Source: Gordonia aichiensis NBRC 108223 (GTDB taxonomy: Bacteria; Actinomycetota; Actinomycetes; Mycobacteriales; Mycobacteriaceae). From it: DNA of 64,000 nt. Location: positions 124,001-188,000 of the forward strand of contig NZ_BANR01000007.1 of assembly GCF_000332975.1 (NCBI RefSeq). The letters are read 5' to 3'. This document shows, one piece after another, positions 1 to 3,988 of the stretch; within the stretch, counting starts at the first letter, position 1, and every line of letters starts with the position of its first letter. The translations under genes were made by a program, and so were the position numbers. The notes beneath the pieces were generated by a model that was not told where the DNA came from, did no database searches, and saw only the letters and a program-made list of their open reading frames with translations.

Positions 1-1837
1 GATGGCACCACGTGGCGTTGCGCAGCACCTCACCCATACGGCCCTTCACCCCGAGGGCCTGGTAGGCCGCGAGCAGATGCTCGTTACCGGTCTGCCCGAA
101 CAGGTAGTCGTGGAAGGCCGCGTTGGTTTCGGTGTATTCGACTGCGTCGACAAACTTCTCGCCCTCGACGTAGGGCACCGTTGCCTCGGCGAGGAGTCGG
201 TAACCTGCGAGTTGCCGACTCGTCATCCTGCCGAATGTGAGCTCGAGCGCCCCCAGTTCCAGTGCTGCTCGCGCCTCGAACAGCGCGTCGGACTCGTGGA
301 TGCCTGGGTGTTCCTCACCGATTTCGTAGCCCTGGGTCGTCACGGTCGCCGGCGTAGGCGGCCCTGAAGCGGCTACCGGGGCCGGTTCGGCGTCGGTGGC
401 CGTCACCCGTGGCGAGACCACGTCGGTGCTGTCGTCTCGCCGCGGGAAGACGGATTGTCCTGCGATCGAGCGGGAGTCGCCGGAGGCGAGCAGTGTGACG
501 CCGTCGGGGTCGAGCGGTGTGGCGCCGCCGGAGGTGAGCGTCGGCAGTGTTGGCGATGCCTGCGCACCGGGCCAGACCTGTTGGCCTGCGACACGTCTGA
601 TCGCTCCGGCGTCGTCGACCGATGTGCCCTGCCCGGATAGGGCTGTCAGTTCGGTGGGTGCGAGCACCTCCTGCCCGGCGACGGCGCGAGCATCTGCGGC
701 CTCGATGATCTCGTGCTCGCGCGCAGGCGTCAGGCGTAACGAGGAATCCATCGGCATGGAATCCGTTTCGCGGACAACCGGTTCCGCCGGGATGGTCGGC
801 GCGGGCACGGCAAGTGCGAACTTCTCGTAGTAGAAGCCGACCGGTTCGATGCCCGCATCGGCGACGTGTGTGCGCACGGATTCGACCATCGGTGGTGGGC
901 CGCACAGGTAGATGGCGACGTCGCCGTCGTAGAGGTGCTCCGGGCGGATGAGACTCATCACGTAACCGTTGTTGGTCGCGGTGGTCTTCGGGTCGGACAC
1001 ACAGTGATCCCAGGTGAACCCCGACAGTTCGCGCGCGTAGAACTCGATGTCGTCGAGGGCCACCAGATCGGTGTCGGTCGACACTCCGTAGATGAGGTGT
1101 ACCTTGCGGGACGTGTTGTCGTCGAGCATCTTCCGGAGCATCGACAGGATCGGCGCCAATCCGGTTCCGCCTGCGAGAAGCAGAACCGGTCGTGCCGATT
1201 CGCGGAGGAAGAACGACCCGTGCGGGCCGGTGAAGGTGATCTCGTCGCCGCGTGTCGCTCGTTCGGTGAGGTAGTCCGACATCACACCGCCCGGCGTCAG
1301 CTTGATGAGGAAGACCAGCTGCTCGTCGTGCGGACCGTTGGCAAACGAGTAGGACCGACGCACCGTGGCGTCCGAGCCGCCGGTGTGTGTACTGTCGGGG
1401 GACTGTGTCCCCGGCACCGCGATGTTCACGTACTGGCCGGGCAGAAAGGCCAGATCCGCACGGTTGGGGATCGCGATGGTCAGGCGCATCGTCGACGACG
1501 AGAGCCGCTCCAGATCGACGATGGTGCCGGTGAACTCGCCGGCAGCGGTCTTGGCGATGTCGGAGGTCGCAGCTATCTGGAGCACCAGATCCGACTGGGG
1601 CTTCATACAGCACGGCAATGCGAACCCGTCCGCGCATTCCGATTCCGAGAGCGCGTCGTCGATGTAGGTGCCGCCGTCGTAGTCGCCGGACTCACAGAAT
1701 GCCTTGCACGTTCCGCATGCACCGTCGCGGCAGTCGAGCGGGATGTTGATGCGCTGCCGGTACGAGGCGTCGGCCACCGTCTGATCCTCGCGGCAGGTGA
1801 TGAATCGCGTGACCCCGTCCTCGAATGTCAGAGCCAC
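1..1837 (-). CDS. benC: Benzoate 1,2-dioxygenase reductase BenC with C-terminal FCD-like extension (partial, runs off left edge)
   Basis: Electron-transfer component that passes electrons from NADH through FAD and a [2Fe-2S] centre to BenAB. Reading from 1837 leftwards, the protein starts VALTFEDGVTRF, as known BenC proteins do. It shows the ferredoxin cysteine cluster CRDGACGTC with a later CC pair, the FAD-binding RRSYSFAN, and an NAD domain with LLAGGTGLAP and YLCGPPPMV ending at FYYEKF. That would complete a normal BenC of about 340 residues. Here the frame stays open for about 270 more codons to the window edge: a low-complexity linker with three R-x-[VI]-A-G-Q repeats, then a stretch like the FCD ligand-binding domain of GntR regulators (FEARAALELGALEL...NAAFHDYLFGQTGNEHLL). 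The start is uncertain: the in-frame GTG at 1837 has a poor ribosome site, while the better-placed ATG at 1926 is out of frame (see the CA tract). It lies 3' of benB in the same transcript. Confidence 0.88.
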   Translation of the reverse strand, partial: MALTFEDGVTRFITCREDQTVADASYRQRINIPLDCRDGACGTCKAFCESGDYDGGTYIDDALSESECADGFALPCCMKPQSDLVLQIAATSDIAKTAAGEFTGTIVDLERLSSSTMRLTIAIPNRADLAFLPGQYVNIAVPGTQSPDSTHTGGSDATVRRSYSFANGPHDEQLVFLIKLTPGGVMSDYLTERATRGDEITFTGPHGSFFLRESARPVLLLAGGTGLAPILSMLRKMLDDNTSRKVHLIYGVSTDTDLVALDDIEFYARELSGFTWDHCVSDPKTTATNNGYVMSLIRPEHLYDGDVAIYLCGPPPMVESVRTHVADAGIEPVGFYYEKFALAVPAPTIPAEPVVRETDSMPMDSSLRLTPAREHEIIEAADARAVAGQEVLAPTELTALSGQGTSVDDAGAIRRVAGQQVWPGAQASPTLPTLTSGGATPLDPDGVTLLASGDSRSIAGQSVFPRRDDSTDVVSPRVTATDAEPAPVAASGPPTPATVTTQGYEIGEEHPGIHESDALFEARAALELGALELTFGRMTSRQLAGYRLLAEATVPYVEGEKFVDAVEYTETNAAFHDYLFGQTGNEHLLAAYQALGVKGRMGEVLRNATWCH

Positions 1838-1937: not shown

Positions 1938-2492
1938 TCAGAAGTGGTAGACGTCCACCACGTGGTGGATGTAGTCGTTCTTGAGCACCACAGTCTTTCG
2001 GCGGATCAGTGGCGACTCTCCGGAGAAGTCGATGGTGTAGAACGAGGTTCCGTAGTACGGGTCGATCGTGTGATAGCGGAAATACATGGTGTGCCAATTG
2101 AATCGGACATCCACGAGGTCGCCGCGACGCTCGATGACCTCGACGTTGGTGATGTTGTGTGACGTCCGGGGCTCGGGAATCGAGGTGGCCGACGACCGTT
2201 CGGTCCGGATACGGAAGACGCGGTCCTCGAGACCGCCCTTGTTGGCGTAGTAGATGAGCGAGATCTCGCGCTGCGGATTCTCGACGAGTCGGTCATCGTC
2301 GTCCCATGCGGGCATCCAGTACTCGACGTCGTCGGCGTAGCAGTCGAGCCACTTCTCGAACTCGCGGTCGTCGAGGTAGCGGGCTTCGCGGTAGAGGAAC
2401 TGCTCGATCATGTTCTGCGTGATGAGCTTGTCCGTGTCGGGGGTGAGGTCGGCGGCACTGATGTCGGCCGCCGACGTCGCTGATGTGGTCAT
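1938..2492 (-). CDS. benB: Benzoate 1,2-dioxygenase beta subunit
   Basis: Small subunit of the ring-hydroxylating dioxygenase that converts benzoate to the cis-diol carboxylate. It is structural and forms the alpha3beta3 hexamer with BenA. The 184-residue product has the SnoaL-like cone fold signature of the beta family: EQFLYREARYLDDREFEKWLDCYADDVEYWMP near residues 30-60, and a C-terminal IRRKTVVLKND stretch. It is about 20 residues longer at the N terminus than common BenB proteins, through an Ala/Ser-rich tail. An AGAAGG ribosome site sits 8 nt before the ATG. It lies 30 nt downstream of benA and its stop is 11 nt before the out-of-frame benC ATG, so benABC is one transcript. Confidence 0.95.
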   Translation of the reverse strand: MTTSATSAADISAADLTPDTDKLITQNMIEQFLYREARYLDDREFEKWLDCYADDVEYWMPAWDDDDRLVENPQREISLIYYANKGGLEDRVFRIRTERSSATSIPEPRTSHNITNVEVIERRGDLVDVRFNWHTMYFRYHTIDPYYGTSFYTIDFSGESPLIRRKTVVLKNDYIHHVVDVYHF

Positions 2493-2522: not shown

Positions 2523-3926
2523 TTACTGCTGCGCAACGGAATGCGTGTCGTCGGCATCGTTGTCGATGGCCGCGCGCATGGTCTTTAGCCAGTACCCGTG
2601 CTGGATCGGGTACAAGCCCTCGTCCTCGTTCTTCACCCCGGCGGAGACGACCCCGGTCATGCCGAGGCTCTCGGCCACCGGGTCGGGTCCTGAAAGCCAA
2701 TGCTGTGCACCACGACTCATGTCATTCCACGGTGCCGCGGTGGCGCGGAAGGTCAGTTGGCAGGATCGGAACTCCTCGAGGTCGTCGGGAGTGGCCATAC
2801 CCGAGGCATTGAAGAAGTCCTCGTACTGGCGAATTCGATGCGCTCGGGCGTCGTCGCTCTCACCCTTCGGGGCGATGCAATAGATGGTGACCTCGGTCTT
2901 GTCCGGGGCGATTGGCCGGAAGTGCCGGATCTGGGTCGAGAACTGATCCATCAGATAGACATTCGGGTACAGGCACAGGTTGCGTGATCCCTTGACCATG
3001 AATTCGCCCTTGGCGTCGCCGAATTCGCGTTTGAGGTCGTCCATCTTGTCCCAGAGGGGCCGGTCCTGTGGGTTGGCCGCCCAGGTCCACAAGCACAGGT
3101 GGCCGTGCGGGAACGACCAGTAACCGCCACCGGATTTGCCCCAGCCGCCCGCATCGAGCGCCTTGGTGTCGTTCTTCGACTCCCCGGTGTTGCGGCGCGA
3201 CGTGGTCGCGGCGTAGTTCCAGTGCGTGGCCGTCACGTGGTAGCCGTCTGCGCCGTTCTCCGCCTGCACCTTCCAGTTGCCGTCGTAGGTGTAGGTTGAC
3301 GATCCCCGAAGCACCTCGAGGCCTTCGGGGGACTGGTCGACGAGCATGTCGATCACTGCTCGCGTGTCGCCGAGGTGCTCCGACAGTGGCAGAACGTCGT
3401 CGTTGAGGCTGCCGAAGAGAAAGCCGCGGTAACTCTCGAACCGGGCCACCGCGGTCAGATTGTGTGAGCCCTCGACGTCGAAGGTGTCCGGATAGCCCGC
3501 GCCGTCGGGGTCCTTGACCTTCAGCAGCGTGCCATCGTTGCGGAAGGTCCAGCCGTGGAACGGGCACGTCAGTGTCATCCGGTTGTCGGTTTTGCGTCGG
3601 CAGATCATCGCCCCACGGTGCGCGCACGCGTTGATGAGGCAGTGCAGTTCGCCGTCCTTGCTGCGGGTGATGACGACGGGTTGCCTTCCGATGTAGGTGG
3701 TGAAGTAGTCGCCCGGCCGTGCCACCTGACTCTCGTGCGCGAGGTAGATCCAGTTGCCCTCGAAGATGTGGCGCATCTCCAGCTCGAAGATCTCCTCGTC
3801 GGTGAAGATCCGGCGATTCGCGCGGTACACACCGGCATCGCGGTCGTCGACGATGGCGTCGGCGAGAATGCCGCGCACGTGGTCGTCGGTACTCGTCGTC
3901 GATGCCGGATGATCTGCGAGTGTCAT
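2523..3926 (-). CDS. benA: Benzoate 1,2-dioxygenase alpha subunit
   Basis: Catalytic subunit of the Rieske non-haem iron dioxygenase for benzoate (467 residues). The Rieske cluster ligands are C101-x-H103 (CAHRG) and C121-x2-H124 (CPFHGW), separated by 17 residues. The mononuclear iron motif is [12 protein letters not shown], with D227 as the likely electron bridge and H230 and H235 as ligands. An upstream ATG would add 19 residues, but the ATG at 3926 has a near-perfect AGGAGG site with a 5-nt spacer and is chosen. It is the first gene of the leftward ben operon and shares a 259-nt promoter region with divergent catR. Toluate/anthranilate relatives are similar, so benzoate as substrate rests on family resemblance plus the cat neighbours. 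Confidence 0.95.
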
Positions 3927-3988
3927 CGTTGTCCTCCTGATGTGGGCTGTACGTCGACTCTCGCAGGACGTGCGCTCGGTCACACTAG

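Follow-up and report, generated by a model that had tools for sequence, protein, structure and literature searches.

A sensor-type FCD domain and a repeat-bearing linker in fused BenC reductases of Gordonia aichiensis and other actinobacteria

The gene that crosses the left window edge

The window, a stretch of 64,000 nucleotides from Gordonia aichiensis NBRC 108223 (contig NZ_BANR01000007.1, bases 124001-188000), begins inside a gene on the minus strand that encodes a BenC reductase, with benB and benA directly upstream on the same strand (Table 1). The coordinates given for benA are those of the longest frame, and its true start may be later. The residues that a first-pass annotation had quoted for window positions 1-310 were found on the minus strand, in a frame that has its first possible start codon, a GTG, at 1837. 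They belong to a stretch of 271 codons between the BenC match (residues 1-341) and the window edge, in agreement with the approximately 270 extra codons that had been counted after the NAD domain. The gene was completed past the left edge with the DNA lying to the left of the window (flank L003), in which the frame continues for 313 more codons, containing the whole of BenD, to a stop at L003:4060. By Pfam and NCBIfam matches, this single frame of 925 codons comprises BenC, an FCD domain (PF07729) joined to it by a long linker, and a BenD dehydrogenase that is complete. The FCD domain, which had been described as C-terminal, is the middle part of this fusion.

The BenC part scored 451 bits against the NCBIfam equivalog NF040810 (cut-off 430), which identifies it as BenC, and the Pfam families Fer2, FAD_binding_6 and NAD_binding_1 were all matched in it. 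Likewise, the BenD part scored 403.7 bits against the equivalog NF040811 (cut-off 380), which identifies it as BenD; it starts about 25 residues after the end of the FCD match. A search of the organism's own genome gave a single BenC match at E<=1e-40, and the next-best BenD match after the fusion protein was only 39% identical, so that no BenC and no close BenD other than the fused protein was found in this genome.

An ATG at window position 1924, preceded by what by eye is a likely ribosome site, lies one frame off the BenC frame. Between this ATG and the GTG at 1837 there is a 15-bp tandem repeat (1875-1923), and the BenC frame is His-rich when read through positions 1838-1924 of the minus strand. 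In two relatives (L004 and L005) an upstream ATG is in frame with BenC; for the out-of-frame ATG, an error, a later start and real variation are the candidates.

Table 1. Features of the BenC-FCD-BenD gene and of its partner genes, in window coordinates
Feature	Residues	Window position	Strand	Basis
BenC: 2Fe-2S, FAD and NAD domains	1-341	815..1837	-	NF040810 and Pfam
Ala/Pro-rich linker	342-514	296..814	-	Low identity among relatives
Linker motif copy 1, RAVAGQEVL	384-392	662..688	-	
Linker motif copy 2, RRVAGQQVW	414-422	572..598	-	
Linker motif copy 3, RSIAGQSVF	456-464	446..472	-	
FCD, part inside the window	515-612	2..295	-	Pfam match 519-643, extending beyond the left edge
Arg523, R of R-x-x-L-E		269..271	-	Present in 113/113 FCDs
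N-A-A-F-H, Asn572 and His576 of the predicted metal site		110..124	-	Conservation; alignment to LldR 2di3
BenD	669-925	Beyond the left edge	-	NF040811
benB, oxygenase beta subunit (partner)		1938..2492	-	ORF; named by eye and from operon context
benA, oxygenase alpha subunit (partner)		2523..3983	-	ORF; named by eye and from operon context

Distribution and history of the fusion

A scan of named genomes with short patterns derived from the query, which favours close relatives, gave 33 loci, 30 of which encode BenC-FCD-BenD in a single frame (triple fusions). These 30 loci were found in Gordonia, Williamsia, Mycolicibacterium/Mycobacterium, Nocardioides, Flexivirga, Amycolatopsis, Rhodococcus and a metagenome-assembled genome of the Mycobacteriaceae. 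Other arrangements were a BenC-BenD frame with three linker motifs and no FCD in Nocardioides luteus JCM 3358 (L033), a BenC-FCD protein with a separate BenD in Arthrobacter (L034), and plain, separate BenC and BenD without an FCD in Paraburkholderia (L036). The 301 genomes surveyed from the family to which the window belongs contain 101 BenC genes at E<=1e-90, all of which were retrieved: 52 triple fusions, some from one-contig genomes, 41 BenC-FCD genes with a separate BenD, four genes without an FCD, and four cut by contig ends. The attachment of the FCD, for which a survey of actinobacterial BenC proteins had been proposed as a check, is therefore the common state in this family. One of the four FCD-less family genes (L122) retains a linker motif and resembles a triple fusion that has decayed. 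At the level of the class, family members included, 13 of 394 genomes had a BenC at E<=1e-80.

The first-pass annotation had itself named a sequencing error joining two genes as the alternative to a real fusion. The best-looking upstream ATG lies one frame off and a small error near the start is possible, but the same single frame recurs in 30 of the 33 named loci, even if that set favours close relatives, and in 52 of the 101 family genes, including those from one-contig genomes. A sequencing error or misassembly was therefore rejected as the source of the fusion, its probability being negligible.

Proteobacterial BenC and BenD, as in Paraburkholderia and on plasmids, have catalytic parts homologous to those of the Gordonia fusion, but the Paraburkholderia enzymes, unlike the fusion, are two separate short proteins with neither an FCD nor a repeat linker. 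A plasmid search with a BenC-FCD query of 668 residues matched 103 records, none of them covering 80% of the query. Among the best 40 of the 103, the match ends at query residue 340-353 with two exceptions, H3 spanning residues 1-466 and H13 residues 1-381. In three genomes of genus code g2 (L041, L042 and L043), a BenC-like reductase with 38-39% identity forms part of a larger single frame of 864-932 codons, the second part of which looks by eye like an FAD-dependent monooxygenase.

After seven repeat fetches had been left out, 145 locus rows gave 130 distinct BenC domains, from which seven low-scoring reductases (<330 bits) were dropped. The remaining 123 comprise 70 triple fusions, 43 BenC-FCD forms, nine cases of BenC alone (four of them cut) and one BenC-BenD form. 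A quick tree, with SH-aLRT support only and rooted on one Paraburkholderia sequence, was made from 65 of the 123, leaving out near-copies (>90% identical, same architecture), rows of fewer than 300 residues and the four rows cut by contig ends. In this tree, one group (SH-aLRT 100) contained 45 triple fusions as well as L033 and L122. The BenC-FCD forms fell outside this group, and the remaining plain forms from actinobacteria, three in number, were nested among FCD-bearing ones; 16 of the 62 inner branches are open. The simplest reading is that the FCD joined BenC once in the actinobacteria, that BenD was joined later, also once, and that the FCD was lost several times, the direction of these events being beyond what a quick tree can prove. 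As L033 is nested among triple fusions, it has probably lost its FCD.

The fusion was already in print, contrary to the expectation that it had not been described. A 2019 paper on Gordonia alkanivorans YC-RL2 reports benC and benD fused with an FCD characteristic of GntR regulators, the same fusion as here, within a benABCD operon that is followed by the gene of a LuxR-type regulator (PMC6362181). That paper calls the FCD C-terminal, whereas it lies mid-protein here. Its passages on the fusion give no account of distribution, metal site, linker repeats or mechanism, and the words 'linker' and 'repeat' occur 0 times in its main text. In Rhodococcus, BenC has been labelled 'FCD domain-containing protein' (PMC11858498), and in R. 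ruber Chol-4 reductase component/dehydrogenase (PMC6498646). Full-text searches of the open literature brought up no study of how these proteins are distributed, of their metal site or of their linker repeats, which is weak evidence that such a study is lacking.

The FCD domain and the linker

The FCD scored 58 bits against the Pfam model (cut-off 24.3), and the same model matched all 31 FCD stretches of relatives at E<=0.001, so that the assignment made in the first-pass annotation is not due to chance. A Pfam model for a minor capsid protein also matched, below threshold and over residues that overlap the FCD; this was judged to be due to chance. A PDB search with a profile of close relatives gave weak and partly unrelated matches (IF1, NanR, HemAT), and the assignment therefore rests on Pfam and on a broader profile, built from nine diverse FCDs (eight of BenC type and that of locus L203, described below). 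With the broader profile, seven PDB sequences matched at E<=0.01, all of them named transcriptional regulators or repressors; they include McbR, PdhR and NanR, all three identified by title, 2di3 (LldR according to PMC4746285) and 7c7e, the last of which we take from its residue numbers to be DgoR. The Gordonia protein itself does not belong to the GntR/FadR transcription regulators: a Pfam search of the full-length protein, with matches considered up to E=1, gave no helix-turn-helix family, not even the winged PF00392 that precedes the FCD in these regulators. A moonlighting role in transcription was rejected because no helix-turn-helix was found.

The residue pattern of the metal-binding FCD subgroup, Asp or Asn with three His at known positions, is present. 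Two of the His residues, His619 and His641, fall outside the window, because its edge cuts the FCD at residue 612. Counted by hand on the profile alignment, the three His align with His148, His196 and His218 of LldR (2di3), which are Zn ligands (PMC4746285), and in the weak matches of the close-relative profile the site residues also align with the ligands of NanR. The spacing (N+4-H, +43-H, +22-H) is nearly that of Ps5454 (+4, +44, +22 from its residue numbers), the Ni site of which consists of Asn144, His148, His192 and His214 (paper on DgoR). Family, site residues and spacing are thus shared with the FadR/GntR regulators that have a metal-binding FCD (LldR 2di3, DgoR, NanR 6on4, Ps5454 3c7j, TM0439 3fms), but these carry a winged-helix DNA-binding domain, whereas none was found in the Gordonia protein and its FCD is attached to enzymes.

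Each of the three His is invariant in the 113 distinct BenC-attached FCDs, as are the Arg and Glu of the R-x-x-L-E motif; the metal-site position of Asn572 is Asn in 109 and Thr in the other four, and in a smaller set of 31 FCDs both the Asn and the His of N-A-A-F-H are invariant. The Asn had been regarded as an odd substitute for the usual Asp, a view that its prevalence and the Ni-binding Asn144 of Ps5454 do not bear out. As Ps5454 has Asn as a metal ligand, Asn572 is no defect, and it was rejected as a reason to assume loss of metal binding. Arg523 aligns with an Arg of PdhR and an Arg of McbR; its putative role in carboxylate binding comes from a comparison with Arg128 of NanR, which stands outside any alignment made here.

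Selection was estimated between the window's protein and four Gordonia relatives, with dS near or above 1 in several of the four pairs. The dN/dS of the FCD was 0.056-0.092, in each pair no higher than that of either catalytic part (BenC 0.066-0.162, BenD 0.071-0.160), and that of the linker was 0.25-0.48. The invariant site and the low dN/dS suggest that the FCD is kept as if functional. Some FCD residues distinguish the two architectures: the position of Cys615 is Cys in 70/70 triple fusions and Ile or Val in 43/43 BenC-FCD forms, that of His587 is His in 70/70 versus 1/43, and that of Cys611 is Cys in 66/70 versus 0/43. Cys611, Cys615 and the metal ligand His619 follow at four-residue steps and, judging by this spacing, may face the same side of a helix.

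The linker is the least conserved segment, with a mean pairwise identity of 0.32 among 30 fused relatives versus 0.71-0.85 for the other segments, and no Pfam or NCBIfam family was matched in it. Triple fusions have linkers of 84-188 residues, whereas in 37 of the 43 BenC-FCD forms the linker measures 23-50 residues. The motif R-x-[IV]-[AG]-G-Q-x-[VM]-[FLW] recurs up to three times in the linkers of triple fusions, and the three copies in the G. aichiensis protein follow the stricter form R-x-[IV]-A-G-Q-x-[VM]-[FLW]. In the linkers of 70 triple fusions there are 125 occurrences of the core R-x-[IVLM]-[AG]-G-Q, where composition-preserving shuffles predict 0.08. This test counts related linkers as separate and shows that the motif is not due to chance, nothing more; the core did not occur in the 43 BenC-FCD linkers. 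With a looser core, 3 of 71 linkers had no copy, 17 had one, 34 had two and 17 had three. The 68 neighbouring pairs are spaced by 29-42 or by 60-66 residues, as if the middle copy of a series had sometimes been worn away. In the organism's own genome there were six pattern hits, two in this linker and four single hits in other, putative frames; copy 2 escapes the pattern, which accepts no arginine codons but CGN. Inspection by eye of both termini of BenA and of BenB at 52 loci (30 triple-fusion, 20 BenC-FCD, one BenC-BenD and one plain) revealed no feature that accompanied the motif. The other six BenC-FCD forms (L151, L156-L159 and L163; genus code g239) have linkers of 149-214 residues with two or three copies of A-R-P-x-G-[YFLH] in place of the AGQ motif, so that the two long-linker groups carry repeats of different sequence.

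Possible roles of the FCD domain

The reading that we prefer, tentatively and with a probability of roughly 0.4, is that the FCD is a metal-dependent carboxylate-sensing domain of regulator origin that would control the attached BenC or BenD; the architecture, the conservation, the metal-site residues and the spread among relatives are observed, and metal binding, ligand and gating are inferred. BenC feeds electrons to benzoate 1,2-dioxygenase and BenD, on the same polypeptide, oxidizes the dioxygenase product. A divalent metal, presumably held by Asn572, His576, His619 and His641 with Arg523 nearby, would bind benzoate or, more likely, the cis-diol product, and binding would alter the activity of BenC (in the two-domain form) or of BenD, so that NADH would be spent only while there is substrate. 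As an alpha-hydroxy carboxylate, the cis-diol that BenABC makes resembles known FCD ligands, which makes it the likelier ligand. In NanR, the ligand at the Zn of the FCD-type domain is sialic acid, and the Zn is held by Asp172, His176, His222 and His244 together with the carboxyl and hydroxyl of the ligand (PMC8012715); DgoR responds to D-galactonate (DgoR paper), and LldR is involved in L-lactate use (PMC4746285). From these ligands and the nature of the diol, the FCD on BenC could sense diol or benzoate. The first-pass annotation had likewise taken the domain for a small-molecule sensor, and what stands of this is that an FCD without a detected DNA-binding domain sits on an electron-transfer subunit; the suggested role in binding metal and small acids would fit the conserved site, and the gating of the dioxygenase that it proposed is a hypothesis.

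A comparable arrangement is found in AbHpaC (C1), the reductase of 4-hydroxyphenylacetate 3-hydroxylase from Acinetobacter baumannii, likewise an aromatic-oxygenase reductase with a regulator-type effector domain, in which binding of 4-HPA to the C-terminal MarR domain relieves self-inhibition and raises flavin reduction at least 30-fold (review PMC10816480). AbHpaC combines a flavin reductase with MarR, whereas the Gordonia protein combines a ferredoxin-FAD-NAD reductase with an FCD and a dehydrogenase, and gating is reported for the former and inferred for the latter. Neither Flavin_Reduct nor MarR was among the Pfam matches up to E=1 in the Gordonia fusion, which is therefore not a member of the AbHpaC type, though by analogy it may work like AbHpaC. 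The best-scoring FCD outside BenC in 296 genomes of the class, also on a reductase, is a further point in favour: it belongs to a Flavin_Reduct-GntR-FCD protein (L203/L206; G909 contig 26, 4889-5977) with 145.4, 32.5 and 68.6 bits for the three domains. Against this, only one of 15 flavin-reductase loci examined, from 39 genomes with a match, carries an FCD, so that the second reductase-FCD case is a rare one. The domain is also dispensable, being absent from four of 97 classifiable family genes and from one Nocardioides locus. In four flavin reductases from small genomes (L212, L214, L216 and L220; family code f79), frames of 376 codons include about 200 extra C-terminal residues, in which there was no FCD match.

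Within the triple fusion, direct gating of BenC is harder to picture, because 84-188 linker residues separate the FCD from BenC; as the FCD adjoins BenD and lies far from BenC in the sequence, BenD may be the controlled part. The ligand may also differ between the fused and the two-domain forms, since the fused clade changed the residues at positions 611, 615 and 587.

The adjacency of FCD and BenD, without exception in the 70 distinct triple fusions, would also be expected if the FCD took the cis-diol from the dioxygenase and presented it to BenD, channelling the intermediate while BenD regenerated within the fusion the NADH that BenC consumes, with no switch involved. The residues proper to the fused forms (Cys615 and His587, each in 70/70, versus 0/43 and 1/43) look as if the pocket had been retuned when BenD joined. 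However, the 43 distinct BenC-FCD genes with a separate BenD lie outside the fused group on the tree, which makes channelling unlikely as the first role, and we know of no FCD that hands its ligand on; we regard this explanation as unlikely. We give no more credit to the view that the FCD merely dimerizes and holds BenC and BenD together, the pocket being a relic. A dimeric spacer would suit a reductase-dehydrogenase assembly, and the C-terminal FCD-type domain of NanR also dimerizes (PMC8012715), but a relic pocket would hardly keep three His and an Arg in 113/113 domains, or a dN/dS below 0.1 in four pairs. The invariant three-His site might instead store or deliver metal for the Rieske/mononuclear-iron oxygenase, or be purely structural, and the benABCD genes of a Rhodococcus strain were up-regulated in Fe3+-supplemented toluene cultures (PMC11858498). 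That effect is tied there to expression and not to the FCD domain. In the sources consulted, the metal of the FCD sites is Zn or Ni, in several cases together with an organic ligand, and nothing indicates iron transfer, so that this is an improbable explanation.

A wider arrangement, more speculative than the sensor and doubtful as a whole, would be a one-chain benzoate metabolon in the fused actinobacterial clade. The BenAB oxygenase is three-fold symmetric. The evenly spaced linker motifs would dock BenAB or another fixed partner, holding reductase, oxygenase, FCD and BenD together, BenD would regenerate the NADH of BenC, and a diol-sensing FCD would set the electron flow.

The fusion is real and widespread, its sensor-type domain is well preserved and its linker bears repeats. 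Annotation gains directly, as BenC of Rhodococcus is named solely after its FCD domain in PMC11858498. If the linker motif docks the oxygenase, these proteins would offer a natural model for reductase-oxygenase tethering. If the FCD gates BenC or BenD, this would be a Rieske dioxygenase system controlled at the level of the protein by a sensor domain known from transcription factors, an alternative to the MarR gating of AbHpaC; direct control by metabolites would then extend to much of the benzoate pathway of actinobacteria.
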